From positions 1-55,172 of IMG/VR virus record IMGVR_UViG_3300044982_000113: DNA of 55,172 nucleotides. One strand, given 5' to 3'. This document shows, piece by piece, positions 4,014 through 52,445 of this stretch (positions within the stretch are counted from its first letter, which is position 1; every line of letters begins with the position of its first letter). Under the pieces are notes generated by a model. It made no database searches. It was not told the origin of the DNA and saw only the letters and a program-made list of their open reading frames with translations. The position numbers were made by a program, and so were the translations under genes. Source of the DNA: a virus.

Positions 4014-4108
4014 TCCATGGTGACGAATTAGTAACCGTGGGGTTGAGTGCGATCGGTCCTACCCGATAGGGTCAAGCTGAACCGATGACGACCTCATGAG
4101 GGTGTGGG

Positions 4109-4498: not shown

Positions 4499-4499
4499 G

Positions 4500-4673
4500 T
4501 TGGATGGTGTGGAACACTACGATAAGGCGAAGGAACTGGTGGACGTGGACTCAGCCAAGGCACTTACTCATGGTGTCTTGGCGTTGGTGGCGTTGTTCGC
4601 AGATAGACCTTGGCAGTATGCGGATGGTCATCCCCTGAAGATGCGCTGGAAGAAAGCTGCAGCTGGGGGATAG
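4500..4673 (+). CDS. Small hypothetical protein
   Basis: 57 aa from TTG 4500, which has GGGAGGA 5 bases upstream. ATG 4485 in the same frame is an alternative but lacks a binding site and would overlap the previous gene by 14 bases. The protein has a central hydrophobic helix and a basic C-terminus. It is probably co-transcribed with the zinc-ribbon gene before it. Confidence 0.5.
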   Translation: MDGVEHYDKAKELVDVDSAKALTHGVLALVALFADRPWQYADGHPLKMRWKKAAAGG

Positions 4674-4690
4674 TATTTATGCTTAGAGCC

Positions 4691-4719
4691 TTGGGTGAGG
4701 CGAACTAGGTCGGTATAGT
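4691..4719 (+). promoter_or_regulatory. Promoter for a leaderless gene at 4726
   Basis: TTGGGT, a 17-base spacer and TATAGT, then six bases and ATG 4726. It repeats the spacing seen at 931, 2517, 39281, 52787 and 54751. Confidence 0.65.
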
Positions 4720-4725
4720 GATGCT

Positions 4726-5718: not shown

Positions 5719-5721
5719 AAC

Positions 5722-6186
5722 ATGAGCCCCAAAGAGCTGCCTCCACACGAAGAGGGCAGGTTCGCCTTCGCCGCGGCGGACTGCGACCACCAGTATGGCG
5801 AGTACATGGCCATCGAGTTCAGCGGACCGCTGAGTCGGATGATCAGGGTGCCCCGGTGCTCCGGCTGCGGCATCAACTTGTCCGACGTTGACCAGATCGC
5901 GTCGGCCATAAACCACTGCGAGCCGGACGAGCACATCACCCAGGACATGCTCGACCAGACCGACGGCAAGCTGTACACCACCTGCCTTCGGTGTGGGAGG
6001 AAGTTCTCCGAGGCGCTGGACTTCTGGGTCACTACCGAGGTGGGCACTCGGACCCTCAGCTTCCGTCGGAAGATCGACAGCCCGATCGCCCGGCACTCCG
6101 TCCACGTCAGCAAGTGGGATCTGTTCATCCATCTACTGTTCGGCCACGGTCCGCTCAACGTGTTCGTCACCACCGGGGAGAACTGA
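5722..6186 (+). CDS. Zinc-ribbon protein
   Basis: 154 aa. CSGC at about 46-49 and CLRC at about 88-91 could form one zinc site around a helical insert. The C-terminal third is hydrophobic/aromatic. AAGGA lies 9 bases before ATG 5722, and the stop overlaps the next start (TGATG). No known family recognised. Confidence 0.65.
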   Translation: MSPKELPPHEEGRFAFAAADCDHQYGEYMAIEFSGPLSRMIRVPRCSGCGINLSDVDQIASAINHCEPDEHITQDMLDQTDGKLYTTCLRCGRKFSEALDFWVTTEVGTRTLSFRRKIDSPIARHSVHVSKWDLFIHLLFGHGPLNVFVTTGEN

Positions 6187-6605
6187 TGTTCTGGGACTAC
6201 ATCGCGGCTCTCATAGCCGTCGGCACCCTTGGGCTCATCGTTGGCTGTTTCATCGCCGAGCGACGGGAGCGCAAGCCGAAGACCTACACCTCCACCTCGG
6301 AGAATGAGAAGGTTACCGGCGAGTACCCGACCTACCTGACCCCGTACGTCGACGATACGCTTCTGCTCGAGCGGATGGATCGGGAGTACTTCAAGCGGCA
6401 CAAGCCTCACACGATGCGCCGCATGATGGTCGATCAGGCGCCGCCCGAGCAGGTCCTGGAGATGCCTGGGGTCGAGTTGGTTGGTGCGACGGTGATATAC
6501 TGCCCGCTGTGCGACACCGACTCCCACAAGTGCGCAGGGTGCGGTGAGCCGACTGCCCACGGCGTCAGAGACTGCGGCAATGCTGCCTGCTCGTCCAATT
6601 GCTGA
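6186..6605 (+). CDS. Membrane-anchored zinc-ribbon protein
   Basis: 139 aa. One transmembrane helix at residues 4-24 is followed by a charged linker. The C-terminus holds CPLC, CAGC and further Cys residues (about 106-139), a cytoplasmic zinc-ribbon tail if the N-terminus is outside. ATG 6186 shares one base with the previous stop, which decides the start. Role unknown. Confidence 0.65.
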   Translation: MFWDYIAALIAVGTLGLIVGCFIAERRERKPKTYTSTSENEKVTGEYPTYLTPYVDDTLLLERMDREYFKRHKPHTMRRMMVDQAPPEQVLEMPGVELVGATVIYCPLCDTDSHKCAGCGEPTAHGVRDCGNAACSSNC

Positions 6606-6619
6606 GAGGCAAACAACTC

Positions 6620-6943
6620 ATGGCACAGGACCTCTCAACCTTCACAGTGCGACTCGACTTCAATGAAGAGGGCGAAGTGGCGGCAATAACCTACGAAGAC
6701 CTGGTCGGGTGTGGAGAAGAGCACGCCCTCGACATGGGATCCCAGCCCGATATGACTGTTCTGCAGTTGGTCAGGTATCACCTGGATCACTATGACCAGA
6801 ACCACAACGTGAGACCTCGAGTCAGGTGCGGCTATGCCATCCGAACTGAACCTTTCGCTGTCGACCTCGAACCCCGGGTGCTTCGCTGCACCCATGAGGT
6901 TCACTCAGATGAAGTCAAGCATCGCTTCGAGATGGATGCTTAA
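6620..6943 (+). CDS. Hypothetical protein
   Basis: 107 aa. GAGAGG precedes ATG 6620. The sequence is acidic with alternating hydrophobic residues and a late RC-T-H stretch, likely a small alpha/beta protein. It is the last gene of the left-arm block before a long hairpin and the packaging genes. Confidence 0.6.
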   Translation: MAQDLSTFTVRLDFNEEGEVAAITYEDLVGCGEEHALDMGSQPDMTVLQLVRYHLDHYDQNHNVRPRVRCGYAIRTEPFAVDLEPRVLRCTHEVHSDEVKHRFEMDA

Positions 6944-8109: not shown

Positions 8110-8395
8110 GGCATGCGGCATTCTGATGGACTGTCCCCGATGGGTGGGCAGGAAGCAGAGCTACATCATCGAACTTCCGAATCGGTCACTGCACTCGGGC
8201 AGCTATGTGATCGAGCCGGGAGACCTTCGGATGGCCCTGGATGATGTCGGGGATGCTGAGGAAGTGGCCATCTGGCATACTCACCCGAGCGGGCTCATCG
8301 GGCCATCCGAGGGCGACCTCAGACATCGACTGCCCGAGATCCCGATGGTCGTTGTTGCACTAACCGATTGTGGTCCACACCCTACATGGTTCTAA
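8027..8395 (+). CDS. JAMM/MPN-domain metalloprotease-like protein
   Basis: 122 aa, about the size of a bare JAB/MPN domain. The JAMM signature is complete: Glu28 (EACGIL), HTH at 84-86 and Ser94-x2-Asp97 (HTHPSGLIGPSEGD), which together bind a catalytic zinc. Family members cleave isopeptide or peptide bonds; in lambda-like phages a JAMM domain occurs in the tail-tip protein gpK. ATG 8027 follows AAGGGGG, and Glu28 requires this start although it overlaps the previous frame. Its place before the terminase is unusual for a tail-tip protease. Virion processing or counter-defence are both possible. Confidence 0.75.
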   Translation: MRTSRLLETLELALPEIHLLGNLRAPVEACGILMDCPRWVGRKQSYIIELPNRSLHSGSYVIEPGDLRMALDDVGDAEEVAIWHTHPSGLIGPSEGDLRHRLPEIPMVVVALTDCGPHPTWF

Positions 8396-8405
8396 GGAGG
8401 TTCGA

Positions 8406-8741
8406 ATGCCAACCGGCGGCTATCAGAAGCTGACCCCGGCCCAGTACCTGGGTTCGGAATACGGCGGTGCACTGTACACCACGAACTCTCTCCAGCCTAA
8501 GGGTGAGGATGCCATAACCGCGGCTGACGAACTTCGCCTCGGTTACACCGTCGGTGACACCAGCGATCCCAGGCAGCAAAACCCGTGGATCAGCCTCGAA
8601 GATCACCGTCAGATGATGGGGCTTCGACCTGCTAGCGGTGATCGGCCAGTCTGGCTGCCTCACACCGGCAAGATCCCGCTGGCCGAGATCATCGGGGTGG
8701 AATACCCCGACGGACTTCAGCCCGAGGAGGATGAGCTGTAG
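8406..8741 (+). CDS. Hypothetical protein
   Basis: 111 aa. A strong Shine-Dalgarno TAAGGAGG precedes ATG 8406. The protein is hydrophilic with no recognised motif and ends in an acidic tail. Its stop overlaps the GTG start of the large terminase gene (TAGTG), so the two are translationally coupled; a packaging or head-associated role is only inferred from this. Confidence 0.6.
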   Translation: MPTGGYQKLTPAQYLGSEYGGALYTTNSLQPKGEDAITAADELRLGYTVGDTSDPRQQNPWISLEDHRQMMGLRPASGDRPVWLPHTGKIPLAEIIGVEYPDGLQPEEDEL

Positions 8742-10144
8742 TGGCTCGAACCGCCTCGGGCATTCGCGTCCCCGAAGGTAAGATCTTCCGCAAGGATATC
8801 TACTTCGATGAAACTGACTACCGTCCACACAGGGGTCAGCGAATCGTTCACTATCAAGGCGCGCGCCACCGCGTGCTGGTGAACGGTCGTCGTTGGGGCA
8901 AGACTCTTTGCGGGGCCAAAGAGGCCGAGTGCATGGCGTTCGTCAAGAACTTCCTCGGCGAGTCTCAGATCGGGTGGATCATTGGCCCGGAGTACTCGGA
9001 CTGCGAGAAGGAGTTCCGGGTCATCTACGACTCGCTGAAGAAGTTGGGTGTGGAGGCGCTTTCGAGCAAATTCACCAACAACCCTGACAACGGCAACATG
9101 CATATCAAGACCAAGTGGGGCTTCGACCTCCAGTGCCGGTCTGCTCGGCATCCGGAGAGCCTTGTCGGAGAGGGCCTGGATTTTGTGCTGATCGTCGAGG
9201 GTGGTCGACAGAAGCGCAAGATGTGGGGCGATTACGTACGCCCGGCTCTCTCCGACAAGCGCGGTTGGAGTTTTACCTCGGGGGTTCCTGAGGGTGCTTC
9301 TGACACCTCGCTGCTGTACTCCCTCTACAACCGAGGACAGGATGCCACGAAGCGAACGTGGTGGTCTCAGCAGATGCCGAGTTGGACGAACGACATCGTC
9401 TTTCCCGGGGGTTATGATGACCCCGAGATACAAGAAGCCAGGGATGACCTGACCGATGACGAGTTCAAGCGCCAGTACGGTGCTGAGTTCGTTGAGAACA
9501 TCGGCCGAGTCATGAAGGAGTGGGACAACGACGATCACGTCGGCGACTTCACTTACAATCGCAAGTGGCCACTCTTCGCTGCGGTTGACTTCGGCTACAC
9601 GAACGACTGGGTTTGGCTTTGGATCCAAGTGGATGAGTTCGGCAAGGTATACGTTATCGGGGAGCACAGATTCCGACTTCGCGATACCCACGACATCGCC
9701 ACCGAGGTCTTCAAGAACCATCCACTCACCTCGAAGTTGTTGACGATCTATGTCGACCCCTCTTCGCCTGACGATGCTTCCATCCTTCGTCGGGTGTTGA
9801 ACAAGACCACGAACAACAACACCGGCGGGGAAATCAAGACCCGGCTCTCCTTGATCCGTAGTGCGCTGAAGCTTCGTCCGGTCCATCTACCTGATGGTCA
9901 CCCGGAGAAGGTTGCCGACTTGTTCGTTGACCGGAGCTGCACTGATCTGATCTGGGAGATGAAGGAGGGTTATCGCTGGCCCGAGACTCGCAGCGAGCAG
10001 AAGAGTGACTCCGAGATTCCTCTGGATACCAACAACCACGGTCCTGAGGCACTTGGGCGGTTCTTCAAGGGTTACATGGAGGGTCGACTGCTGACCCGAC
10101 AGTCCAGGCAATCATCCATCGGCAAGAATCGAGGGAGGCGGTAA
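8741..10144 (+). CDS. terL: Terminase large subunit
   Basis: 467 aa, normal for the family. It is the ATP-driven packaging motor with a nuclease that cuts concatemers. A Walker A variant GRRWGKT is at residues 49-55 and a Walker B-like LDFVLIVE at 146-153 ends in the catalytic Glu. The C-terminal RNase H-like nuclease begins at VDFGYTNDW with Asp283, and further Asp residues follow (VDPSSPDD). GTG 8741 overlaps the upstream stop and the stop overlaps the portal start (TAATG), so packaging genes form one coupled operon. Confidence 0.95.
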   Translation: MARTASGIRVPEGKIFRKDIYFDETDYRPHRGQRIVHYQGARHRVLVNGRRWGKTLCGAKEAECMAFVKNFLGESQIGWIIGPEYSDCEKEFRVIYDSLKKLGVEALSSKFTNNPDNGNMHIKTKWGFDLQCRSARHPESLVGEGLDFVLIVEGGRQKRKMWGDYVRPALSDKRGWSFTSGVPEGASDTSLLYSLYNRGQDATKRTWWSQQMPSWTNDIVFPGGYDDPEIQEARDDLTDDEFKRQYGAEFVENIGRVMKEWDNDDHVGDFTYNRKWPLFAAVDFGYTNDWVWLWIQVDEFGKVYVIGEHRFRLRDTHDIATEVFKNHPLTSKLLTIYVDPSSPDDASILRRVLNKTTNNNTGGEIKTRLSLIRSALKLRPVHLPDGHPEKVADLFVDRSCTDLIWEMKEGYRWPETRSEQKSDSEIPLDTNNHGPEALGRFFKGYMEGRLLTRQSRQSSIGKNRGRR

Positions 10145-31629: not shown

Positions 31630-32289
31630 TTACTCGCCGTCGTCGTCGAGGTCGAGCTCCTCGTCGTCCTCGACCTCCTCGACGACCGGCGCCTTGCGCC
31701 GCTTCTTGGCCGGCGCCGCGGCCTTCTTGGCGGTCTTCTTCGGCGCCGGCGTCTCGTCCTCGTCGTCGTCCTCGTCGACCTCGGCCGCCGCGACCTTCTT
31801 CTTCTTGGCGGCGTCCTGGGCGGCCTTGCGCTCCTTCAGCGCGTCGAGCTTGGCCTTCTTCTCGACCTCGAGCTCGCCGCCCTTGTAGGCTTCCAGGATG
31901 GCGCGGACCTCGGGGTCGTTCGGGCCGGTCCAGTTGTAGCGGCTGCGGTTGCCGGGGACGATCTCGCGGTCGACCCGGCCGGTCTCGTCGCGGGCCATCT
32001 TGCGGATCAGGGTGCGCATGCCCCGGGGGTTGACGTCATCGCCGGTCTCGGTCTTGACCAGCTTGCAGAGGTCCTGGATGCCGAAGGTGATCTCGTCGTT
32101 GGCGGACTTCTTCTTGCCCTTGGCGGCGGGAGCCTCGTCGGCAACCTCGTCCTCCTCGAGCTCCTCCAGCTCGTCGCCATCGTCCTCCGCCTCGACCAGC
32201 TCGGAGTCGAAGTCCTCCTCCGGCGAGATCTCGGGCTCGACCGGGGCGGTCTTCGCCTTGGCCTTGCGGGCGGTGGTCTTCGCTGCCAT
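31630..32289 (-). CDS. Histone-like basic/acidic DNA-binding protein (RKFLRD-related family, copy 2)
   Basis: 219 aa. A Lys/Ala-rich start and an acidic segment (about 20-55) precede a central domain (about 65-140) with LIRKMARD followed by PGNRSRYNW, related to the proteins at 334 and 47457. The C-terminal 80 residues have H1-like Lys/Ala/Pro runs and end in the acidic EELDLDDDGE. AAGGAG precedes ATG 32289; an upstream in-frame start at 32343 is unlikely. It is the only leftward gene in this part and has its own promoter. A nucleoid-like role in DNA compaction is plausible. Confidence 0.75.
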   Translation of the reverse strand: MAAKTTARKAKAKTAPVEPEISPEEDFDSELVEAEDDGDELEELEEDEVADEAPAAKGKKKSANDEITFGIQDLCKLVKTETGDDVNPRGMRTLIRKMARDETGRVDREIVPGNRSRYNWTGPNDPEVRAILEAYKGGELEVEKKAKLDALKERKAAQDAAKKKKVAAAEVDEDDDEDETPAPKKTAKKAAAPAKKRRKAPVVEEVEDDEELDLDDDGE

Positions 32290-32355
32290 GGTAACTCCTT
32301 GGTTGGGTTGATCAGTAGTTCGACCCTCGGTGAGGGGCGTCAAGTTGATGAGCTA

Positions 32356-33481: not shown

Positions 33482-34963
33482 GTGAAGTACCGTTGGAGGA
33501 CTCGACCCTACCGACACCAAGTAGCGGCCGTCAAGAAGCTGTTGTCAACTGGGTACGGTGGTGCTCTACTGATGGCACCCCGGACCGGCAAGACCAAGAC
33601 CATGATCGACTACGGCTCGATCTTGTACCAAGCCAAGGATGTAAACCGCATCCTGATCTTCTGCCCGCTCTCAGTCATCGGGGTGTGGGAACGGGAGATC
33701 AAGGCTCACTCGCCCTTCGAGTCGCGCATCACAGTCTGGGATAAGGAGGCTCGCAAGAAGGGGGTGACGCTGCCCAAGTATGGTCGGGATGGCATTGACT
33801 GGGTCATCCTCAACTACGATGCCCTGTCAACTCCTGGGGCGGTGATGAAACAAGACGAATATGGCAATAAGCTGCGCTCACGCAAGCGCGGAGGTAAGTA
33901 CGACATCATGAAGGCCCTCGAACGCTGGCAGCCCCAGGTTATCGCCCTGGATGAAAGCCACCGCATCAAGTCGCCGACTGCGGTCAAATCTCGAATGCTC
34001 CACAAACTGGGCAAGGTGGCAGACTACCGGGTCATCATGACCGGTACTGTCGTGACCAAGAAGAAGCGCGTGTTCGACATTTGGTCGCAGTGGAAGTTCC
34101 TCAATCCCAGTAAGTTCCCCATGCCGTTCGGTAACTTCAAGCAGACCTATGGGGTGTGGAGGAAGCGAAATGGGTACGATCAGTGGATCAGGAACATCAA
34201 CGAGGATGGTCTCCATGCCCAGATCCACGAGGATGCATTCGCGATCAGCCGAGAAGAATGCTTCGACCTACCGCCGAGGCGAGAGCAGATCATTCCTGTT
34301 GAGCTGGATGAATCGGCTTCGGGCTATGATGACATGGCCAAAGACATGGTTGCTCGGATTCACACCGGCGAGATCACGACGGCATCAATCGCGCTTGTGC
34401 AGTCGCTCCGACTCCGTCAGATGACCTCAGGCATCGCCAAGACTGAGCCCACGACTGAGCACCCCGAAGGCCGACTCGTTCGTGTGGGACGAGAGAAACT
34501 CGATGTCATGAGGGACATTCTCTCCGACCTTTTCGAGGCGGATGAGAAGGTGGTAGTAGGTGCACACTTCGTCGGTGACATCGTGGCTATCAAGGCGATG
34601 TGCGAGAAGCTCAAGGTGGATTGCTTCGTCCTCCGAGGTGGTATCCCCCGTAAACAACGAGATGCTGACATCGAGGCATTCAGGGTCCACACAGGGCCAG
34701 CTTGCTTCGTTGCACAACCTCAGGCGGCATCGCTGGGGATTGACCTGAGCACCGCGTCGATCTGCATCTGGTTCAGCCTCACCCCGAGCTACGTTGACTT
34801 TACTCAGTTCGAAGACCGGATTGCGTTGTCCAATCGTTCGACGATCTATATGTACCTGCTCGCTACAGGAACAATCGACGAACTGCTTTACCAGACTCTT
34901 CAAGAGGATGGTGACGTAGCTAAGGCCATCATGGCTTCCCCGGACCGCCTCTTGCGAGAATAA
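33482..34963 (+). CDS. SNF2/DEAD-like superfamily 2 helicase
   Basis: 493 aa. Motif I APRTGKT at residues 32-38, motif II DESH at 157-160, motif III-like MTGT after it, and a C-terminal RecA-like domain with QPQAASLGIDLSTA and a late arginine-rich segment define an SF2 DNA-dependent ATPase of the SNF2 type. In phages these act in replication restart, recombination or remodelling. GTG 33482 is 8 bases after the previous stop with AGGAG upstream. Confidence 0.9.
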   Translation: MKYRWRTRPYRHQVAAVKKLLSTGYGGALLMAPRTGKTKTMIDYGSILYQAKDVNRILIFCPLSVIGVWEREIKAHSPFESRITVWDKEARKKGVTLPKYGRDGIDWVILNYDALSTPGAVMKQDEYGNKLRSRKRGGKYDIMKALERWQPQVIALDESHRIKSPTAVKSRMLHKLGKVADYRVIMTGTVVTKKKRVFDIWSQWKFLNPSKFPMPFGNFKQTYGVWRKRNGYDQWIRNINEDGLHAQIHEDAFAISREECFDLPPRREQIIPVELDESASGYDDMAKDMVARIHTGEITTASIALVQSLRLRQMTSGIAKTEPTTEHPEGRLVRVGREKLDVMRDILSDLFEADEKVVVGAHFVGDIVAIKAMCEKLKVDCFVLRGGIPRKQRDADIEAFRVHTGPACFVAQPQAASLGIDLSTASICIWFSLTPSYVDFTQFEDRIALSNRSTIYMYLLATGTIDELLYQTLQEDGDVAKAIMASPDRLLRE

Positions 34964-35070: not shown

Positions 35071-35634
35071 ATGCTCATTGTTGAAGGCCCGGATGGAGCT
35101 GGCAAGACCTCTCTCATCCGACGCTTGAGTGCTGACCTGCGCTGGCCGGTAGCGCCGAAGGTCGTTGCCTCCGACACGACACCCATGGTGAACCTGGGTG
35201 CTTGGGTCGACGCCAACACCCAGCAGGGCTTCCAGCGCAAGATCTTCGACCGCCACCGACTCATCTCGGAGCCGATCTACGGCCCCTCGACGAGGTCGCA
35301 GCAGGACCAGAACTTCCTCGACCTCGGCTGGGTCGCGGAGATGAACTGGCGGTTCTACACGGCCAAGCCGATCCTGATCTACTGCATCCCTTCGCTGGAG
35401 ACGGTACGTCGGAACGTCATCAATGACCCCAACAACGCGGCGATTGCCAAGCGGATCACGGCGATCTACTCGTCCTACGTGACTCGGGCTTCGGTGGATT
35501 TCACCAGCGCCAGCACGTCGGCCAAGCTCTACAACTACGAGACGACCTTGTACGAGGACGTTCTCAACTGGACTCGCCGCGAACTGATGAGTCGCGGCAT
35601 CGGCAAGAAGGAGCAGAGTGAGCAGCACGTATGA
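35071..35634 (+). CDS. Deoxynucleoside monophosphate kinase (thymidylate kinase-like)
   Basis: 187 aa. The P-loop GPDGAGKTSL lies at residues 6-15, with DRHRLISEPIYG corresponding to the substrate/lid region and an LIYCIPSLETV strand-helix. It would phosphorylate dNMPs. Its neighbours (pyrophosphatase, two thymidylate-synthase-fold proteins, dCMP deaminase) suggest it serves a special nucleotide, as T4 gp1 kinase phosphorylates hydroxymethyl-dCMP. Substrate is not readable from sequence. Confidence 0.8.
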   Translation: MLIVEGPDGAGKTSLIRRLSADLRWPVAPKVVASDTTPMVNLGAWVDANTQQGFQRKIFDRHRLISEPIYGPSTRSQQDQNFLDLGWVAEMNWRFYTAKPILIYCIPSLETVRRNVINDPNNAAIAKRITAIYSSYVTRASVDFTSASTSAKLYNYETTLYEDVLNWTRRELMSRGIGKKEQSEQHV

Positions 35635-36064
35635 CAACCAGGTCCTGACGACCCCGGTCGAACAGCGCAACGACTACGGTCCGAACTACCTGGGTGAGTG
35701 CTTCGCGGCTCAGCGACAGCTGATGGAGAAGTACCACGACATCGAGGACTCCAACGGTTCCCCGGTTCTGATGGAGGACGAGGAGGGCGATCTGAACTCT
35801 CGGGTTGTCCAGAGCAGGCTCCACGAGCTCTTCGGCTACGCCACCCGCGAGTGGGCCGAGGCGATGCAGGAGCTGAAGCTCAAGCCGTGGAAGCGGGAGG
35901 AGATCCCGACCGACATCGCCAAGTTCGTGGGTGAGGTAGGCGACCTGTTCCACTTCTTCGTCGAGTTCTGCATCACGGCGGGGATCAGCGACAAGGACCT
36001 CCGGGACGCGTACTTCAAGGAGCACGCGAAGAACCACCGACGCATCGACTCCGGCATCTACTAG
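35618..36064 (+). CDS. MazG/dimeric-dUTPase-like all-alpha NTP pyrophosphatase
   Basis: 148 aa from GTG 35618, overlapping the kinase by 17 bases. The metal-binding pattern is present: EWAEA (ExxE) in one helix and GEVGDLFHFF (ExxD) in the next, separated by a WKREEIP loop, with a C-terminal helix DAYFKEHAKNHRR. The superfamily hydrolyses dNTPs to dNMPs; T4 dCTPase-dUTPase has this job. In context it could remove dCTP and dUTP from the pool. Confidence 0.7.
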   Translation: MSSTYDNQVLTTPVEQRNDYGPNYLGECFAAQRQLMEKYHDIEDSNGSPVLMEDEEGDLNSRVVQSRLHELFGYATREWAEAMQELKLKPWKREEIPTDIAKFVGEVGDLFHFFVEFCITAGISDKDLRDAYFKEHAKNHRRIDSGIY

Positions 36065-36079
36065 CAAGGAACTGCTCCT

Positions 36080-36241
36080 GTGATACGCCCCGCGATCCGT
36101 CGCCGCATCGAAACAGCGATGGAACTCGCCGAGGCATGGGAGTCGGTGATGTCGGCGGTGGCTTACACTGCCGCCGGCATCATCGGCATCTTGGCCGTCA
36201 TCATGATCATCTCCGCCGGCAACAAGTTTGGATTGCTATGA
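36080..36241 (+). CDS. 53-aa single-helix membrane protein
   Basis: From GTG 36080 (AAGGA upstream) to TGA 36239-36241, which overlaps ATG 36238 of the next gene (ATGA). A basic amphipathic start (RPAIRRRIETAMELAEAW) is followed by one transmembrane helix (AAGIIGILAVIMIISAG). The tight coupling to both neighbours supports it as a real gene. Function unknown. Confidence 0.65.
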   Translation: MIRPAIRRRIETAMELAEAWESVMSAVAYTAAGIIGILAVIMIISAGNKFGLL

Positions 36242-37278
36242 CGTCACCGAGGTTGTACACCGCCCGAACCATGACGGCCCTCCACGACGACATGGTCAAG
36301 TCGCTAGTGCTGGGTACTCCGGATCAATTGTCCACCGTGAGTGGGGTCGATGTATCGATCCACAACGTGGTGGCCTACGCCGATCGCATGGTGTGGGACT
36401 TCGACATGAAGAACTACTGGTTGACCAAGTCCAGGTGGTCGACCATGGTTCGTCAGTACCTCGACCCCGACGATGTCCAGGCTTGGTTGGACAAGTGCAG
36501 TACCGGCATCGGTAGGAAGGGCCGAGGAATCGCGGTGCTGCGCACCCGCACTGTCGCCCCCCGAGGCGGTGCCGCGACCGGCCACAGCAACAAGGAGACC
36601 CGACGATGGGGCTCTTGCATGCTGACCATCAGCTACAAGGCTGACCCCAAGCCGCAGATCACCCTGCACTCCAGGACCTCCTACCTCGGATACATCGGGG
36701 TACTGGACATGGGCATCGCCTGGATGCTGGCCAAGTACCTGGCGCACGAACTGAAGATGCCCGTCGAGGACATCAGCTTCATGTGGTACAACGAGGCGAT
36801 CCAGTGGCACTACTTCAAGTCGTTGGCCTGGATGCTCAGCAACCCCGACCTCGACGATCGGAAGATGTTCCGTCGGCTCATCCTCAAGAACAAGTCCGGC
36901 ATGGAACCGAATGAGGTCGAGATGGTCGACAACCATCCCGCGATCTACGGCAGCCGGAGATGGCTCATGAAGCTCCGCAAGGAGGATGCGGCCGGCAGTA
37001 CTTACGGCGACATGACCTACAACACCTACCGGCGAGTTCGGCGCCGATTCCACACCGAGGTGCTGGGTCACATGAAGGCCCAGACCTTCGAGGGTTGGTC
37101 CTACTACAAGCAGGGCGAGAAGGCCGGCGAGGAGAAGGAGTTCTTCAAGGCTTACCCGCCGCTGCCTTCGGTGGGCATCGACGACCTGGACCTCTCGGCC
37201 ATCAAGATGCCCTTCGGCAAGCGCTACGGTGGCGACTTCGTCGGGGGCGACGACATCGAGGATGACGACGATGAGTAA
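36238..37278 (+). CDS. Thymidylate synthase/dCMP-hydroxymethylase superfamily protein (divergent)
   Basis: 346 aa. Residues 95-200 align by eye with thymidylate synthase: GRGIAVLRTR for the sRRi segment, Cys127 in RRWGSC for the catalytic Cys, LHSRTSYLGYIGVLD for QRSxDxxLGxPFN, then AWMLAKYLAHE. The residue 11 after the conserved Arg146 is Asp157, where thymidylate synthase has Asn177 and T4 dCMP hydroxymethylase has Asp. The Asp of RSxD is missing (Tyr149), so activity is uncertain. The C-terminus is acidic. ATG 36238 overlaps the small membrane gene. Confidence 0.6.
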   Translation: MTSPRLYTARTMTALHDDMVKSLVLGTPDQLSTVSGVDVSIHNVVAYADRMVWDFDMKNYWLTKSRWSTMVRQYLDPDDVQAWLDKCSTGIGRKGRGIAVLRTRTVAPRGGAATGHSNKETRRWGSCMLTISYKADPKPQITLHSRTSYLGYIGVLDMGIAWMLAKYLAHELKMPVEDISFMWYNEAIQWHYFKSLAWMLSNPDLDDRKMFRRLILKNKSGMEPNEVEMVDNHPAIYGSRRWLMKLRKEDAAGSTYGDMTYNTYRRVRRRFHTEVLGHMKAQTFEGWSYYKQGEKAGEEKEFFKAYPPLPSVGIDDLDLSAIKMPFGKRYGGDFVGGDDIEDDDDE

Positions 37279-37792
37279 GAAGAAACAGCACAAGACCCAG
37301 CCCGGCAGTACCGGACGAACTCGGGATGCTCTTCCCAAGGCGGTGAAGCTTCCTTTCCCGCATCCGGACAATGGTCCTGAATCGGCAGGGATGGCAGAGA
37401 TTGGTCGGATCGTGATGCTCGACAATGATCCTCCCACCAAGCCCGAGCCGGTACCCCACTACTTCTGCGCGAGCGGCAAGAACGGGGAAGGCCCAGTTCG
37501 CTGCCGGCGGTGTGGGATGCATGAGGAGGGTCTGCTCATCCGGGATGAGCTCTGCTCAGGTTGGCAGGACTGGGAAGAGGACCTTCCGAGTCCTACCCCC
37601 GCCGTCCGGGCCATCAAGCGGATCCAGATCGTGGTTCTGCACAACGACAACGTCAACACCTTCCATCCCGTACCCGAGGGGGAAGGCTGGAAGATCGACC
37701 CTCCCAGCCGGACCTTGCAGATCGGCAAGGGGGTTGGTAGGGTACATGTACCGCTCGACAATGTGCGGTACTACAGCCCCCAGGAGTACTGA
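37271..37792 (+). CDS. Hypothetical protein with zinc knuckle
   Basis: 173 aa, ATG 37271 overlapping the previous gene by 8 bases. A basic start is followed by HYFCASG ... CRRCG (about 63-80), a zinc ribbon-like pair, then a beta-rich C-terminus (IQIVVLHNDNVNTF). No enzyme signature. Confidence 0.6.
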   Translation: MSKKKQHKTQPGSTGRTRDALPKAVKLPFPHPDNGPESAGMAEIGRIVMLDNDPPTKPEPVPHYFCASGKNGEGPVRCRRCGMHEEGLLIRDELCSGWQDWEEDLPSPTPAVRAIKRIQIVVLHNDNVNTFHPVPEGEGWKIDPPSRTLQIGKGVGRVHVPLDNVRYYSPQEY

Positions 37793-37793
37793 C

Positions 37794-37970
37794 ATGGCAA
37801 TGGACAACATCCAGCTCCGACGCGCTCTCGCCGAGATCGACGGGGGCATCGAGGCCAACCTCCCGATCGTGGCGGTGACCGAGGAGGGGGAGATCCTGGA
37901 GATCACCTCGGTCAAGTTCTCCCACGTCGAGGGTGGTCAGATCCACATCAACGTTCAGTACATGGACTAG
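37794..37970 (+). CDS. Small hypothetical protein
   Basis: 58 aa, ATG 37794 directly after the previous stop. A helix (NIQLRRALAEIDGGIEANL) and three strands (PIVAVTEEGEILEITSVKF) suggest a compact fold. It lies between the two thymidylate-synthase-fold genes. Confidence 0.6.
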   Translation: MAMDNIQLRRALAEIDGGIEANLPIVAVTEEGEILEITSVKFSHVEGGQIHINVQYMD

Positions 37971-37978
37971 GACAACAC

Positions 37979-38848
37979 ATGGTGAGGGTCTACACAGGAC
38001 CCTTCATCCGCGTGATTCGGCAGCTTCTGAAGGATTTCTCGGGAGCTGCCGAACCCGTAGATGTGGGGCAATGGCAGTCGGTCGACATCAAAGGCGATGC
38101 GTCAAGGGTCACTTGGGAGCTCAGGGAAGCGGTCCTGGCGATCGAGATGCAGTCGACGATCGATCAGGCGCAGCGCGAATACTCGCCGTCTCTGCCCTGG
38201 GCTGAGGATCACTTCCTCGAAAGGGTATCCGGCAAACCGCTGAACCCCCCGCCTTCCCAAGCTTGGTGGCCGTTTGCCCAGAACGGCAATGACCAACACA
38301 AGAAGGGTGGGAAGTTTTCCCACACCTACCCTGAGAGGTTCTGGCCTCGCTTCGCCGGCAAGGACCTCAACGTCACCTCGCTGCTGATCGATGGTGTGGA
38401 GCAGATCACTCCTCGACGAGGTATTCGATTTGCTTATGGCGATCTTCATGACGTCATAACTCGGATCGCCAAGAACCCCCAAACTCGACAGGCTTACCTG
38501 CCGATCTGGTTTCCAGAGGATACCGGGGCGCCTGACAGCGAGCGAGTACCCTGCACACTGGGGTACTTGTTCATGGTGCGGGGCGGTAAGCTTCACCTGA
38601 CCTACCACATCAGGTCCTGTGACTTCATGCGTCACTTCCGGGATGATGTCTACATGGCGGTGAGGCTGGGTCAGTGGATCGTCGAGATACTCGACCGTGA
38701 GTATGGACTCATGTTGGAAGTGGGTGAACTCACGATGCACATCGGATCTTTCCACATCTTCGCCGGCGATCGACCGATGTTGAACCACCTTCTTCGAGAA
38801 GCCCTCAAAGAAGCCAACCACGATCTCCTTAGGGGACTAGGTCAATGA
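37979..38848 (+). CDS. dCMP hydroxymethylase-like member of the thymidylate synthase superfamily
   Basis: 289 aa, the usual length. NPQTRQAYLPIWFPED (Arg170) is the phosphate-binding segment, PC at 191-192 holds the catalytic Cys192, RSCD at 212-215 matches the RSxD motif, and GSFHIFAGD (His259) matches the C-terminal HIY motif. The residue 11 after Arg212 is Asp223 (HFRDD), where thymidylate synthase has the dUMP-selecting Asn. T4 dCMP hydroxymethylase has FRND there, so dCMP is the likely substrate. Product (hydroxymethyl- or methyl-dCMP) cannot be read. The gene ends with ATGA overlap to the dCMP deaminase. Confidence 0.8.
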   Translation: MVRVYTGPFIRVIRQLLKDFSGAAEPVDVGQWQSVDIKGDASRVTWELREAVLAIEMQSTIDQAQREYSPSLPWAEDHFLERVSGKPLNPPPSQAWWPFAQNGNDQHKKGGKFSHTYPERFWPRFAGKDLNVTSLLIDGVEQITPRRGIRFAYGDLHDVITRIAKNPQTRQAYLPIWFPEDTGAPDSERVPCTLGYLFMVRGGKLHLTYHIRSCDFMRHFRDDVYMAVRLGQWIVEILDREYGLMLEVGELTMHIGSFHIFAGDRPMLNHLLREALKEANHDLLRGLGQ

Positions 38849-39306
38849 GGCCCACGCGTGATCACATCCTGATGGGTTCCGCTTTGCTGTTCGCTCAGCG
38901 AGGAACCTGCAGTCGGGCACAGGTCGGGGCGGTGATCTCGGTCGGTAGCCGTATACTGGTCAGCGGCTACAACGGCGCACCCGCCGGAATGCCGCACTGC
39001 GATCACATCAGTTGCAGTTGCGCCACCAACTTGATTCAACACAGGTACTGCCCCCAGCATAGCCCCTGCACCCGAGCGGTTCATGCCGAGGCCAACGCGC
39101 TGGCTTTCGCCGCTCGTTACGGCGTATGTGTGGAAGGTGCCACGCTCCACACCACGAGGGTGCCCTGTTTGACCTGCGCCGGGTTGATCATCAACTCTGG
39201 TATCCGGCGGGTTGTCTGGGGCGAAGAACATCGAGACATGGCTGGACTGAGCCTCCTTGCCTCTGCCGAGCTAGAGGTGGTAGAATATCGCCATGCCGAT
39301 TTCTAA
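38845..39306 (+). CDS. dCMP deaminase-like protein
   Basis: 153 aa. The zinc deaminase motifs are complete: VHAEANAL (His-Ala-Glu) and PCLTC. An upstream Cys-rich insert (CDHISCSC ... CPQHSPC) resembles the T4-type enzyme, which binds a structural zinc and is allosterically regulated. It makes dUMP from dCMP, the precursor of dTMP. ATG 38845 overlaps the previous stop, and its end overlaps the polymerase start by 14 bases. Confidence 0.9.
   Translation: MRPTRDHILMGSALLFAQRGTCSRAQVGAVISVGSRILVSGYNGAPAGMPHCDHISCSCATNLIQHRYCPQHSPCTRAVHAEANALAFAARYGVCVEGATLHTTRVPCLTCAGLIINSGIRRVVWGEEHRDMAGLSLLASAELEVVEYRHADF
39257..39286 (+). promoter_or_regulatory. Promoter for a leaderless DNA polymerase gene
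   Basis: TTGCCT, an 18-base spacer ending AGAGGTGG and TAGAAT, then six bases and ATG 39293. It lies inside the end of the deaminase gene. The extended -10 (TGGTAGAAT) is the same as at 931. Confidence 0.75.
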
Positions 39307-41872
39307 TCTCGATCCCGATGGGCGACCTATGTTGTCGTTGATCGGTAATCGATCCTGCACCGACTGCAAGCTCCAACGCAATACCGAGGAAGTCTGCGAG
39401 ATGGGTACTGGCCCTGGCCAGGCTCAGATCATGGTGGTCGGTAAGATGCCGAACTCGGACAGATACCAGCAGGCGCTGGAAGATCAACTGCTTGAGGTTG
39501 GCCTGAGCCCGAGCCAGATGTACTTCACCCAAGCCCTGAAGTGCCGAAACTTCGAGGACAATGCCAGCAATGCCGACGTCAAGGCTTGCCGGCAATATCT
39601 TGACAACGAGATTGCGGTTGTCAAGCCCTCACACATCCTGGCACTTGGTAACGAGGCATTGCTCGCGACCACCGGCCATTCTGGGATCATGAAGTACCGA
39701 GGTCGGGTAATCGAGAAGAATGGCTACACGGTCATTCCCACCGTATCCCCATCAGCGGTCTCGCGCAATCCTGGTCAACTGCCCGGGTATATGGCTGACC
39801 TTCGACTCTTCGCCAATGACTATCTCGGCAAGTCATCTGGGGTCAAGATTCCGAAGTATTCGGTGATCGACACCAAGAAGAAGTTGCAGGCGCTGAAGAA
39901 GATCCTCTTCATGACGAAGGAGATCAGCTTCGACATCGAGTCCACCATCAATCCGCTTGGGGAGTTCGACCCCGGCGCCAAGGTGATCAGTCTCGCCGGC
40001 ACTTGCATCGTCGATATGGGCGACGGCAAGGACAAGATCTTCGGCTTCGCTTTGCCGCTCTACCATCCCGAATCGCCCTGGCAACGTACCTGGCGATCGG
40101 TGCTGAGGTTCCTCAAGGGGGCTCTCGAGTCAATCCGTAAGGGGACTGCTCAGAACGGCAAGTTCGACTGTCGGTGGTTGGTGCACTTCGGCATCAACAT
40201 GAACCACACGTTCGACACCATGCTGGCCATCCACATGCTGAACGAGAATATCGCCAAGGGCCTCAAACCCAATGCCATGGCTCGATTGGGTGTACCACCA
40301 TGGGGTCGTGATACCAAGAACCTGCTGAACGACCCCCTCGCCGAGGTACTCGAGTATAACTTCCTCGATACCTACTACACCCACTTGCTGAAGAATGACC
40401 TGAAGAAGGAACTCGAGGAACAACCTCGGGTGATGCGCATCTTCGCCAAGTTGATGATGCCGGCAAGTCGAGACCTGGTGCACATCGAGCGTCGCGGGGT
40501 GTGGATCGACCTTGAGCGACTGCGCGCCAGAAAACCTCAGTGCGAAGCCAAGCTCGCCGAGATCGAGTCGAGCATCAGATCCTACCTGCCCGCGCAGGAC
40601 TCCGCCGATTGGCCGGTCGATGCCAAGGGTAAACCCCGTGACATCAACTTCAATGCCAGCATCTTCGCCAGGTGGTTTATCTTCGACTGGTTGAAGATGC
40701 CGGTGCTTGAACGGGGCAAGGAAAAACCCAACGGCGACCCCGGTGACCCCAGCATGGCGGAGTCGGTGTTGCTCCACCTCAAAGGCAAGCATCCGGCAAT
40801 CCAACTCATGCTCGATCGTGTGGAATGGCAGAAGAACCTGAGCTCGTTCTTCAATGCCTACGAGGTCATGCATGATGAAAACCACCGGGTCCACACCACC
40901 TTCAAGCTTGCCGGTACTGTCACTGGTCGACTCAGTTCGGGTAAGGTTGATGCTGAGAAGGTCGGGGGTAAGACGAACCTGCGCGGGGTAAACCTTCAGC
41001 AGGTACCTCGCGATCCATTCATCCGAGGACTCTTCGGTGCGCCTCCCGGTTGGACCTTCGTCGAAGCTGACTACTCTCAGATCGAGCTTCGTATTGCCTC
41101 GTTTATCGCCAATGAACGCCATATGAAGCAGCTGTACATCCAGGGCGCCGACATCCACATGACCACCGCTATGGCGGTGACCGGCTTGCCCAAGAACCGA
41201 ATTACCAAGGAGATTCGAAAGAAAGTCGGTAAGCCGGTCAACTTTGGGTTCCTCTATGGTATGGGGTGGAAGAAGTTCATCGAAACTGCCTTCAACAACT
41301 ACGGTGCGGTGTTCACCGAGTCTGAGGCCAGAGGGTATCGAGAAGCTTACTTCCAGCTTTTCCCCGATCTGATGAGGTGGCACGATCGTCAGCGACGTCT
41401 CGTAGCCAACCATGGGAGGGTGCAGTCACCCCTTGGGCGAGTGCGCCACCTGCCCGACATCTACTCGCCTGACAAGATGGTCCGGGCTGAGGCAGAGAGG
41501 CAGGCAATCAACTCGCCGGTGCAGGGCTTCGCCAGTGATATGGCCTTGCTCTCCATGACGATCATCAACGAGGAGTTCCGGCGCGAGGGTATCGCCGGTC
41601 ACTGCATCGGTCTGGTTCATGACGCCATCAACTTCGAGATCCGAGACGATGAACTGGCCAGGGCACTCCCCATCATCAAGAACACGATGGAAGACCCCGA
41701 TCCACTTCGACGTAAGTTTGGCACCGTGCTTGACATTCCCATCATCGCTGACCTGAAGCTGGGACGACACTGGGGTGACTCCCATGAGGTTGAGGATGCC
41801 TCGGTTATCTATGACGAAGAGCTATTGCGCGGATGGATGGAACAGAACCACCCCGCTTATGCTAGTCTTTGA
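39293..41872 (+). CDS. Family A DNA polymerase fused to a UDG-like iron-sulfur domain
   Basis: 859 aa. Residues 1-175 resemble family 4/5 uracil-DNA glycosylase: CTDC at 22-25 and a C-x14-C pair (KC...AC) for a [4Fe-4S] cluster, but the catalytic motifs are degenerate (SPS where HPS is expected). Residues 205-390 are a 3'-5' exonuclease (Asp214, Glu216 in SFDIES). The polymerase has motif A EADYSQIELR (Asp593), motif B VNFGFLYGMG (Phe651) and motif C VHDA (Asp777). It replicates phage DNA. The fusion may relate to reading or protecting non-standard bases. Confidence 0.93.
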   Translation: MPISNLDPDGRPMLSLIGNRSCTDCKLQRNTEEVCEMGTGPGQAQIMVVGKMPNSDRYQQALEDQLLEVGLSPSQMYFTQALKCRNFEDNASNADVKACRQYLDNEIAVVKPSHILALGNEALLATTGHSGIMKYRGRVIEKNGYTVIPTVSPSAVSRNPGQLPGYMADLRLFANDYLGKSSGVKIPKYSVIDTKKKLQALKKILFMTKEISFDIESTINPLGEFDPGAKVISLAGTCIVDMGDGKDKIFGFALPLYHPESPWQRTWRSVLRFLKGALESIRKGTAQNGKFDCRWLVHFGINMNHTFDTMLAIHMLNENIAKGLKPNAMARLGVPPWGRDTKNLLNDPLAEVLEYNFLDTYYTHLLKNDLKKELEEQPRVMRIFAKLMMPASRDLVHIERRGVWIDLERLRARKPQCEAKLAEIESSIRSYLPAQDSADWPVDAKGKPRDINFNASIFARWFIFDWLKMPVLERGKEKPNGDPGDPSMAESVLLHLKGKHPAIQLMLDRVEWQKNLSSFFNAYEVMHDENHRVHTTFKLAGTVTGRLSSGKVDAEKVGGKTNLRGVNLQQVPRDPFIRGLFGAPPGWTFVEADYSQIELRIASFIANERHMKQLYIQGADIHMTTAMAVTGLPKNRITKEIRKKVGKPVNFGFLYGMGWKKFIETAFNNYGAVFTESEARGYREAYFQLFPDLMRWHDRQRRLVANHGRVQSPLGRVRHLPDIYSPDKMVRAEAERQAINSPVQGFASDMALLSMTIINEEFRREGIAGHCIGLVHDAINFEIRDDELARALPIIKNTMEDPDPLRRKFGTVLDIPIIADLKLGRHWGDSHEVEDASVIYDEELLRGWMEQNHPAYASL

Positions 41873-50175: not shown

Positions 50176-50427
50176 GTGGCCATCGTCCGGCCCGAGAAAA
50201 TGCCCGAGGATCTGGATGCCCTGGATGAATGGTTGGTGAAAGCCTACAACCGGGGCAAGGAAGACGGCCGAGACAAGCTTTGGGAGCAGATCAAGGCTTT
50301 CCTGCTCAAGGAGTTCTTGTACTCCAAGGGTCGTAATCGCCGCGCCGACATGGAAAACCCGCGAACCTTCGCAACCAACGAGGTCATGAGGAAGCTCTAC
50401 GCGGCTTACGAGGACGGAAGTCTGTGA
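50176..50427 (+). CDS. Small hypothetical protein upstream of the primase
   Basis: 83 aa from GTG 50176 with GAGGATAGGA before it. Helical and charged (DEWLVKAYNRGKEDGRDKLW). Its stop overlaps the primase GTG (GTGA), so the two are coupled. Could be a replication accessory; function unknown. Confidence 0.6.
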   Translation: MAIVRPEKMPEDLDALDEWLVKAYNRGKEDGRDKLWEQIKAFLLKEFLYSKGRNRRADMENPRTFATNEVMRKLYAAYEDGSL

Positions 50428-52445
50428 AACCAGCTCTCGACCACGCCAAAGCGCTTCGTATTATCTCGCGTGCGTGGGGTAAGCAAGACGGATATGCCTT
50501 CTTTCCACACATCGACCGTGAGGAGCAGGTTCGGTCGGGTGAACGGCGGGCGGGGTTTCATGAGAACCGTGCCTTCAAGTGGCCGCAGGAGAAAGCGGCT
50601 ATCCTGAAACACATGGAGGCTCATGAGACCCATGACCTCTATTGGTGTCCCTCACTGTTTGAGGGCACCGAACGCAAGACCGAGCTCGCCATGGATGAAC
50701 ATGCCTTGTGGGCTGACCTCGACGAGGCCAATCCCAAGAAACTGCATGGGGAAACCGACTTCAAGCCTACGATCGCCTGGGAAACCTCACCTGGTCGATA
50801 TCAAGGTCTCTGGGTTGGCAACCCGGTCATGGGCGACTTCCAGGGTGTTAGTTGGCCTGGCAACGAAAACCAACGACTCAGCTATCACCTCGGTGCGGAC
50901 AAAAGCGGTTGGGACACCACCCAATTGCTGCGTTTCCCGGGTTGGCCTAACTACAAGCCCGAGTACAAGAAGCGCGGTCAACCGGCTCCCGGGAAACTCC
51001 TTTGGGACCGCGGGCCGATGTACTCCATCGAGGACTTCAAGGAACTGCCAGCAGTTGCTGGAGCTCTCACTGCGGATAAACTCGGCGATATCCTGACCGA
51101 TGAGATCGACGCGGTCGATATCACCAAGGTCAAAGCTCGGGTTAAGCTGAAGTTGAACCAGCGAGCTCGGGATTTGCTTGGTGCCCGACACGTCGCCGGC
51201 GACCGAAGCGAAAACCTCTGGTATCTCATCCGTTGCCTGGCCGATGCGGGTTGCACGGTCCAGGAGATCGTCGCCATCGCTCGGGCTTCGGTGTGGAATA
51301 AGTTCGATGGTCGCAGCGATGAGATCAAGCGCCTGATCACCGAAGCGATGAAGGCCATCGATCAGCGCGATCCGGAAGTCTCAGAGAAGATTGAGGAAGA
51401 GGAGGCACCCAAGAATCGCCCCTCACGCATCGCCGCTTTTCTCAAGGACGTCAAGCCGCCACGGTGGCTCGTCGAGGGCATTGCCACCGAAGGTTCCGTC
51501 GGGTTTATCGCGGGTCAACCCAAGTCATTCAAATCGTGGTTCGGCCTCGACCTCGCCATTTCAGTTGCCACTGGGGCGATGTTCCTGGACTACTTTCGGG
51601 TTGTGAAGCCTGGACCAGTGCTCTACATCCAAGAAGAAGACTCGGCGATCACGGTCAAAAGCCGGGTACGCAAGGTGTGGAACAGCAAAACCGTTGACCG
51701 GATGCGCCTCCACACCAACGGTCACGATGTCATCTGGGAACCGGGCAACTCCCGAAACTTCGACCCGGACATCGACATTTACCTCCAAGAGGGTTTCATC
51801 GTCAGTGAGGGTCACTGGCAGGAATGGCTCGATGAGACTCTCACGGCAGGTATGGATGGTGTACCATATGTTCTGGTTATCATCGACACGCTGATGAACG
51901 TTGCCGGCGATGTTGAGGAGAATAAGAGCCAGAGCATGACCACCAAGATCTTCAAGCCCGTTAAGTTGCTCTGCCGCAAACACGCCGTCTCACTCCGCTT
52001 TATCCACCATATGGGCAAAGGTGGCGGGGACAATGATACTCGTCGCGGTGGACAGAAAATGCTAGGTGGCACGGCGAACCATGCCTGGGCTGAGGATAGT
52101 CTCTACCTGAGCCGCGGCAAAACCGGCACCATCCATATGGAGTTCGAGTCTAAGTCTGCCCCCGAAAAACAGTACACCATCAGCGGGTTGGATAATCGAG
52201 GCTGGACCCCCTACTTCGAGCCCGAAAAGCCCAAGAAAGAGCCTGTGCCGACTTCTCGCGGACGTAAACCCCGAACTGCCCGCACCAACCCCACGCTGGA
52301 TCTGCTGCAGCAAGGGGGTACCCTCCACACAAACGATATTGCCACCCAACTCAACCGACAGTATGGGCCAACCTATAAGTCGCTCCGAGCTCTCGAGGCT
52401 CAAGGCAAGGCTCACAGGACGGTGAATGGCTGGCAAGCTACCTAA
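50424..52445 (+). CDS. Primase-helicase: archaeo-eukaryotic-type primase domain plus RepA-like ATPase
   Basis: 673 aa from GTG 50424. Residues 60-230 hold DLDEA (Asp98, Asp100), the metal site of an AEP/RepB-type primase, with WETSPGRYQGLW. Residues 340-560 are a RecA-fold RepA/AAA_25 ATPase with Walker A GQPKSFKSW (364-372) and Walker B-like VLVIIDTL, plus RFIHHMGKG. A C-terminal winged-helix-like segment (about 620-670) may contact DNA. It primes and unwinds DNA for the polymerase at 39293. Confidence 0.85.
   Translation: MKPALDHAKALRIISRAWGKQDGYAFFPHIDREEQVRSGERRAGFHENRAFKWPQEKAAILKHMEAHETHDLYWCPSLFEGTERKTELAMDEHALWADLDEANPKKLHGETDFKPTIAWETSPGRYQGLWVGNPVMGDFQGVSWPGNENQRLSYHLGADKSGWDTTQLLRFPGWPNYKPEYKKRGQPAPGKLLWDRGPMYSIEDFKELPAVAGALTADKLGDILTDEIDAVDITKVKARVKLKLNQRARDLLGARHVAGDRSENLWYLIRCLADAGCTVQEIVAIARASVWNKFDGRSDEIKRLITEAMKAIDQRDPEVSEKIEEEEAPKNRPSRIAAFLKDVKPPRWLVEGIATEGSVGFIAGQPKSFKSWFGLDLAISVATGAMFLDYFRVVKPGPVLYIQEEDSAITVKSRVRKVWNSKTVDRMRLHTNGHDVIWEPGNSRNFDPDIDIYLQEGFIVSEGHWQEWLDETLTAGMDGVPYVLVIIDTLMNVAGDVEENKSQSMTTKIFKPVKLLCRKHAVSLRFIHHMGKGGGDNDTRRGGQKMLGGTANHAWAEDSLYLSRGKTGTIHMEFESKSAPEKQYTISGLDNRGWTPYFEPEKPKKEPVPTSRGRKPRTARTNPTLDLLQQGGTLHTNDIATQLNRQYGPTYKSLRALEAQGKAHRTVNGWQAT

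Follow-up and report, generated by a model that had tools for sequence, protein, structure and literature searches.

A probable cytosine-nucleotide modification cassette of phages contains a second protein of predicted thymidylate synthase fold

The window analyzed here, a 55,172-nucleotide stretch of viral DNA (IMG/VR record IMGVR_UViG_3300044982_000113), carries a run of nucleotide-metabolism genes ahead of a DNA polymerase gene, and the question it raises is whether these genes supply thymidylate or a modified cytosine nucleotide. A preliminary description had recognized four ORFs of this run, and all four are confirmed, on the + strand like every gene given below, with domain matches in agreement. 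The conserved cassette begins with a P-loop monophosphate kinase (35071-35634; PHROG 761, 'thymidylate kinase', 6.8e-11), followed by a MazG-like all-alpha NTP pyrophosphatase (35618-36064) with ExxE and ExxD motifs in its translation, which matches PHROG 12184 pyrophosphohydrolase (1.5e-21) and, over the cut-off, PF08761 dUTPase_2 (1.6e-6); membership of this family does not separate dCTP from dUTP as substrate. The thymidylate synthase-fold enzyme, here called TS (37979-38848), matches PF00303 Thymidylat_synt over the cut-off at 1.3e-8 and PHROG 160 at 7e-34, and the dCMP deaminase (38845-39306), with HAE and PCxxC motifs, matches PF00383 (3.6e-20), PHROG 174 (2.6e-47) and PDB dCMP deaminases, down to 9.8e-20. 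A family-A DNA polymerase, PolA (39293-41872; PF00476, 4e-71; PF03167, 7.7e-16; PF01612, 2.4e-7), which has a UDG-superfamily domain at its N-terminus, closes the cassette as its last gene. The four ORFs had been placed in one rightward cluster; they do form a rightward unit but not a contiguous one, as three genes separate the pyrophosphatase from TS. These are P3 (36238-37278), whose start was taken at 36238 although the longest ORF begins at 36136; a small gene without known function (37271-37792), restricted to close relatives, with tblastn matches in L005, L008, and L009 only; and a 58-residue ORF just 5' of TS (37794-37970), read from the sequence and assigned to no family. The upstream neighbor is an SNF2-type helicase (33482-34963; PF00176, 4.4e-17; PHROG 62 DNA helicase, 2e-101), which is part of the replication module and lies outside the modification set proper.

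The residues previously singled out in TS are in place by alignment, namely Cys192, R212-S-C-D215, and Asp223 at the E. coli Asn177 column, 11 residues past Arg212. Cys192, Arg212, Asp223, and His259 are invariant among 100 relatives, and the PF00303 match, the predicted fold, and the invariant Cys and Arg together place TS in the superfamily. Its AlphaFold2 model (pLDDT 85.9) finds the CMP hydroxymethylase MilA as best Foldseek match (2.9e-14), and MilA is also its best solved neighbor by sequence profile (1.7e-8). In the tree TS forms its own clade, the 'Arg-type' clade. The Cys is directly followed by Thr or Ser, as in T4 dCMP hydroxymethylase, where ThyA has His (His147), and 30 residues lie past the conserved His in both TS and the T4 enzyme, compared with 57 in E. 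coli ThyA, whose C-terminal tail closes off the active site. TS is thus without the Asn177, His147, and C-terminal tail of a ThyA. An Asp at the Asn177 column, the mark of a dCMP-type enzyme, selects dCMP (PMC6400193) and marks phage contigs with modified cytosine in MetaGPA (PMC8670742).

At the signature positions of hydroxymethylation TS differs from the T4 enzyme. The published signature of dCMP hydroxymethylation is an Asp three residues before the Cys together with Ser-x-Tyr (PMC6400193), and TS does not carry it, because these positions are held by Arg189 (Cys-3; Arg in 100/100 relatives, not Asp) and His115 (Tyr-2; His in 92/100, Tyr in 8). The folate-activating Glu column (T4 Glu60, E. 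coli Glu58) is His78 in the window, with 89 His, 8 Glu, and 3 Gln among the 100, a column assignment that rests on an alignment stretch without gaps; the folate-pocket Asp215 is kept in 96/100. Of the features of a T4-type dCMP hydroxymethylase, TS therefore has the short C-terminus and is without Asp/Glu at Cys-3, Ser/Thr at Tyr-2, and Glu60, and it has Arg189 where the dCMP hydroxylase AfhB has a Cys-3 Glu, and Asp215 where AfhB has Asn in the folate-Asp column. The invariant Cys192, Arg212, and Asp223 make a cytosine-type substrate well supported on sequence grounds and plain thymidylate synthesis unlikely, while 5-hydroxymethylation by TS is less secure. The earlier proposal of cytosine modification consequently holds as far as a cytosine-directed set is concerned, given Asp223 in every relative and the frequency of separate ThyA or ThyX genes, but its '5-hydroxymethyl or methyl' product is not secured in view of Arg189, His115, and His78.

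The distinctive part of the cassette, overlooked in the preliminary description, is P3, a second TS-fold protein. It has no family in Pfam or NCBIfam, its PHROGs match is the function-less PHROG 13667 ('unknown function', 7e-106), and a PDB sequence search with it gave no match. Its AlphaFold2 model (pLDDT 91.2, pTM 0.88) retrieves from the PDB, among the top 50 Foldseek matches, TS-superfamily structures exclusively (best E 6.3e-8, prob 1.00), with modest TM-scores of up to 0.54 to solved structures. Across 101 relatives the only invariant residues are Tyr74, Cys127, Arg146, and Asp157, and the spacing from Cys to Arg is 19 and from Arg to Asp 11, compared with 20 and 11 in TS; the Cys-3 position is Trp in most relatives. 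A profile-profile comparison of P3 with the window TS gave no match, and for this reason the assignment is based on fold and residue spacing, weakly backed by a match to the AfhB group profile (E 3e-4, probability 38%) in which Cys, Arg, and Asp are aligned. This group is the best match of P3 beyond its own family, with ThyA and unrelated controls at 0.04 or worse. Judged on its predicted model, P3 founds a new family of the TS superfamily. The idea that a single gene had been split into TS and P3 was rejected, since each holds a complete Cys/Arg/Asp set.

Actinophages and proteobacterial phages share the gene order kinase-MazG-P3-TS-dCMP deaminase-PolA, and because it is found in dozens of independent phages the arrangement is not a matter of chance. 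TS lies directly downstream of P3 in 63/63 evaluable, independently found P3 loci, which were recovered by an alignment-seeded scan of viral contigs, and in many loci the stop of P3 and the start of TS overlap by 4 bases. A scan of viral contigs seeded with P3 alone gave no match, probably reflecting poor peptide patterns. TS is also known without P3, in large phages. A genuine ThyA is encoded in 9/22 TS-only records and as gp67 of Triscuit, and ThyX in 5/25 cassette records and in L004; since carriers so often encode a genuine ThyA or ThyX, TS is unlikely to be their source of dTMP. Cultured carriers of the cassette with laboratory hosts exist, among them Gordonia phage GTE2, Serratia phage Serbin, and Pseudomonas phage PMBT14. 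Literature searches found no modified-base measurement for any cassette phage, and no restriction or base-composition data for GTE2, Serbin, PMBT14, or Polewnik.

From the observed gene order, conservation, predicted folds, residue equivalences, and P3-TS linkage we infer every substrate and cofactor, the group at C5, and the part played by P3 as follows. The cassette for cytosine-nucleotide modification is real and its product putative; our favored reading, which we hold with moderate confidence, is that a self-contained enzyme set makes a C5-modified deoxycytidine nucleotide before its entry into phage DNA. The MazG-like enzyme would cleave dCTP and/or dUTP to the monophosphate, and TS would bind dCMP, with the cytosine read by Asp223 and the phosphate by Arg212, so that Cys192 could attack C6 and a one-carbon group, most likely hydroxymethyl, be placed at C5. 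P3, which has a Cys, an Arg, and an Asp of its own, would use either the nucleotide bound by TS or the one formed from it as substrate, or else pair with TS. The kinase is predicted to act on the modified dCMP and would bring it closer to the triphosphate, dUMP for dTMP would come from the deaminase, and PolA would replicate using the altered nucleotide pool. A tentative extension, which we consider doubtful, is that P3 performs a second, folate-independent step on the TS product, in which Cys127 would attack C6 of the 5-substituted dCMP, the substituent would leave to give an exocyclic methylene, and another nucleophile would add, the paired TS-fold enzymes completing a hypermodified cytosine at the mononucleotide stage without a transferase; in a variant of this two-step reading, P3 and TS may form a single mixed active complex.

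Several alternatives bear on the C5 group and on P3. The group could be a hydroxyl, with P3 and/or TS using flavin to hydroxylate dCMP to 5-hydroxycytosine in the manner of the phage HY126 enzyme AfhB. Among solved folds, AfhB structures do match P3 best (6.3e-8 and 4.8e-7), the AfhB group is its best outside profile match, and most TS sequences, like AfhB, are without Glu at the folate-activating column. We nevertheless regard this as unlikely, as the Cys-3 Glu of AfhB is missing from TS (Arg) and from P3 (Trp in most), TS retains the folate-pocket Asp where AfhB has Asn, and sugar-transfer genes were not found in the window with Pfam. It is similarly improbable that P3 is a catalytically dead partner that only stabilizes or regulates TS; its constant linkage to TS, the stop-start overlaps, and the existence of TS without P3 would fit such a role, but its sole invariants are Tyr74 and the Cys/Arg/Asp set, whose retention would hardly be expected of a protein without catalytic function. 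Xanthomonas phage XP12 has fully 5mC DNA, and if TS were a dCMP methylase forming 5-methyl-dCMP the cassette phages would resemble it. A single Asn-to-Asp change converts ThyA to a dCMP methylase, according to work cited in PMC8670742, and TS is without the water-activating Asp of hydroxymethylases, yet the missing ThyA tail, the short C-terminus shared with T4 dCMP hydroxymethylase, and the His in most TS at the folate-activating Glu column leave this reading with little probability. Least probable is ordinary thymidylate supply, with the deaminase forming dUMP, TS dTMP, and the kinase dTDP, which has the Pfam and NCBIfam name thymidylate synthase, a fitting deaminase and kinase, and the Azira report's description of the four genes as thymine synthesis (PMC10353413) on its side, but is opposed by the Asp for Asn177 in 100/100 relatives, the absent tail, and the separate ThyA or ThyX of many carriers, and leaves P3 without explanation.

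If the cytosine-modification reading is true, it changes how the resistance of cassette phages to restriction and CRISPR is to be read. What is new is the P3 family itself, which went unrecognized by the annotation libraries searched, has an intact catalytic set, and has TS as its constant partner; it may perform new chemistry, and the TS clade with which it is paired has a cofactor site without explanation.

The cassette shares with the T4 gp42 dCMP hydroxymethylase pathway an NTP pyrophosphatase, a dCMP-type TS-fold enzyme, a monophosphate kinase, and a dCMP deaminase, and TS shares with gp42 the Cys, the Arg, the Asp (Asp179 in T4), the Thr after the Cys, and the short C-terminus. T4 has Asp145, Ser94, and Glu60 where the window TS has Arg189, His115, and His78, and the clades are separate, so that the label 'T4-like' is apt for the pathway logic and not for the enzyme lineage. 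In addition, the cassette has the extra TS-fold protein P3 and is without a glucosyltransferase; the earlier failure to recognize a glycosyltransferase extends to 30 further proteins (Pfam), and a scan of the window with Pfam and PHROGs found neither this nor another decorating enzyme. MilA, an enzyme of mildiomycin (antibiotic) biosynthesis, is the best solved neighbor of TS, yet is only ~19% identical and has Asp at Cys-3 in the alignment where the window TS has Arg189. It also carries an additional C-terminal helical domain (PMC5175136).

AfhB (PDB 9iqu, 9iqc) has the TS fold and the Cys/Arg/Asp set in common with P3 at 13% identity, with Glu at Cys-3 in AfhB only; HY126 has one such enzyme, its annotated region being without an adjoining second TS-fold gene, and AfhB, Acj9, and AF3 all combine this Glu with Asn in the folate-Asp column. 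The 5hmC carbamoyltransferase modules (MetaGPA; Xp15-like) also combine an Asp177 TS-fold enzyme with dCMP deaminase and MazG-like neighbors and an association with cytosine modification, but the Xp15 TS has Asp at Cys-3, and a search near the TS-fold gene found no carbamoyltransferase in 24 cassette records. In L074, a TS-only record, a carbamoyltransferase lies ~1.3 kb upstream of TS, which gives no conclusion on 5hmC because it is just 23% identical to the Xp15 protein. Relatives of Serbin in the 9g group use a 7-deazaguanine cluster (PMC6509536), Serbin itself is without one, and this is in keeping with the cassette filling that role. Finally, the actinophages Zuko, Triscuit, Shrew, GTE2, and 8UZL share this set of six genes and its order, hypothetical P3 included. 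Their cassettes are annotated as thymidine metabolism, and a literature search on them found no description of P3 as TS-like. Although the literature presents this gene set as supplying thymidine, it more probably serves cytosine modification in the many actinophages and the several proteobacterial phages that carry it.

The window spans the entire 55,172-base virus record and has no tRNA genes, and its right half holds a rightward replication block that comprises an SNF2 helicase, the modification genes, a UDG/PolA fusion, a PD-(D/E)XK exonuclease and a Sak4-like annealing protein. The four genes singled out in the preliminary description are real, with family matches for each: a P-loop kinase (35071-35634; nearest PHROG 761, phage "thymidylate kinase"), a MazG-like pyrophosphatase (35618-36064; PF08761), a thymidylate synthase-fold enzyme, here TS (37979-38848, plus strand; PF00303, PHROG 160), and a dCMP deaminase (38845-39306). 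They do lie in a rightward block, though not contiguously, since two small ORFs and P3, a protein of 346 residues (36238-37278, plus strand), interrupt the set in its middle. The plus strand from 35071 to 41785 has no terminator-like site in a consensus scan alone, which fits one transcription unit. Elsewhere in the window, a leftward gene (31630-32343, minus strand) encodes a Lys/Ala/Glu-rich protein without a Pfam match, a compact segment of which appears nucleoid-protein-like by eye, and 50424-52445 encodes a primase/AAA helicase fusion (RepB_primase and AAA_25; PHROG 3123, still labelled "unknown function").

There is strong evidence that TS would work on dCMP. Residues Cys192, Arg212, Asp223 and His259 are unchanged in all 100 distinct TS sequences of the clade, and the residues originally named, including Asp223 at the Asn177 column, are correct. 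Enzymes of the TS superfamily with an Asp in this column select dCMP (PMC6400193), and in the MetaGPA study the same residue is a mark of contigs with modified cytosine (PMC8670742). The residue after the Cys is Thr or Ser, as in the T4 dCMP hydroxymethylase gp42, and is His in ThyA. The nearest solved enzyme by profile and fold comparison is the CMP hydroxymethylase MilA, and the C-terminus is short as in gp42.

The proposed cytosine modification stands as to substrate, but identity as a dCMP hydroxymethylase must be kept apart from it, because TS lacks the published marks: an Asp at the third residue ahead of the Cys (Cys-3) and a Ser two positions ahead of the active-site Tyr (PMC6400193). 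TS has Arg189 at the first (100/100) and His115 at the second (92/100), and the Glu column that activates methylene-tetrahydrofolate holds His78 in 89/100 and Glu in only 8, while the folate-pocket Asp215 is kept in 96/100. A hydroxymethyl product is the most likely single outcome, though not a secure one. TS relatives form one clade (100/99) on a long branch apart from gp42, AfhB (the dCMP hydroxylase of phage HY126) and ThyA, in a tree whose deeper order is unsure because of long branches. Eight members (L134, L157, L158, L159, L160, L162, L167 and L168) keep the folate-activating Glu with Tyr replacing His115, so the cofactor site is not uniform across the clade. Bacteroides phage BF486P3 (L095) provides another instance of paired TS-fold enzymes, with two different dCMP-hydroxymethylase-like genes close to each other (1006-1767 and 3839-4519), both aligning an Asp at Cys-3, and with the folate-activating Glu in one and Leu in the other.

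In the genome papers on Azira (PMC10353413) and Serbin (PMC6509536), these genes are assigned to thymine or nucleotide metabolism. TS is unlikely to be the dTMP source of carrier phages, because a strong separate ThyA occurs in 9/22 TS-only records and next door in Triscuit, and ThyX in 5/25 cassette records. The queuosine cluster present in the 9g-group relatives of Serbin is missing from Serbin itself (PMC6509536), and the part of 9g examined has that cluster and no annotated TS, which lends circumstantial support to a DNA-modification role; we found no published modified-base measurement for any cassette carrier in the literature.

P3 matches no Pfam or NCBIfam family, and its PHROG, 13667, is annotated without function, yet it is very likely an unrecognised TS-superfamily protein. 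An AlphaFold2 model with 41 relatives as input (pLDDT 91.2, pTM 0.88) gave TS-superfamily proteins as all top 50 Foldseek matches in the PDB, the best being AfhB (6.3e-8), with MilA, gp42 and ThyA also among the matches. Phage fold matches include the "uncharacterized" PMBT14 protein A0A2I6PI74, and a PMBT14 hypothetical protein of that size sits directly before the PMBT14 TS. Across 101 aligned P3 relatives, which extend into proteobacterial phages, the sole positions that never change are Tyr74, Cys127, Arg146 and Asp157, with Cys-Arg and Arg-Asp spacings of 19 and 11, versus 20 and 11 in TS. Profile comparison of P3 with the window TS gave nothing, and that with the AfhB group gave an E of 3e-4 with the same Cys/Arg/Asp aligned, versus 0.04 or worse for ThyA and unrelated controls. 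We consider it likely that P3 is catalytically active, with a cytosine nucleotide as its substrate; the alignment shows no conservation of the folate-pocket Asp, and P3 is probably not a normal folate user.

By tblastn, TS relatives over most of its length occur in actinophages as well as in phages of Serratia, Brevundimonas and Pseudomonas, with 188 matching IMG/VR stretches, and the order kinase, MazG-like, P3, TS, dCMP deaminase, PolA recurs around the best IMG/VR matches and in annotated records. In a second scan of viral contigs, seeded on P3 rather than TS, 63 of 64 loci have TS at most about 1.1 kb downstream of P3, the remaining contig ending inside P3; dCMP deaminase and kinase are each found in 58, and the P3 stop and TS start overlap by four bases in many. 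Another 22 records, some >300 kb, have TS without detectable P3. Tandem P3 genes (4020-5024 and 5027-5947) directly before TS in L030 hint at a duplication or a P3-P3 pair. The 118-kb phage contig L074 has a TS-clade member without P3 in an island (2982-6720 and 8259-9206) that also holds a carbamoyltransferase, a sugar dehydrogenase-like ORF and a possible glycosyltransferase.

The constant pairing with TS and the intact catalytic set of P3 suggest one of three roles for P3: it may convert the TS product in a second step, it may carry out a flavin-type hydroxylation like that of AfhB, or it may join TS in a mixed complex. The window yielded no decorating transferase, consistent with the earlier remark that no glycosyltransferase was recognised, so the modification may end at whatever TS and P3 make. 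The family-A DNA polymerase at 39293-41872 has a UDG-superfamily domain at its N-terminus; motif A of UDG is usually of GEAPG type, and the GKMPN seen here by eye points to a possibly inactive glycosylase, which is of interest given the adjoining base-modification set. In T4, a pyrophosphatase, a TS-fold enzyme, a kinase and a deaminase swap the dCTP pool; the corresponding four window enzymes would fit such a swap, and in comparison with the T4 logic P3 is the added element of the cassette.
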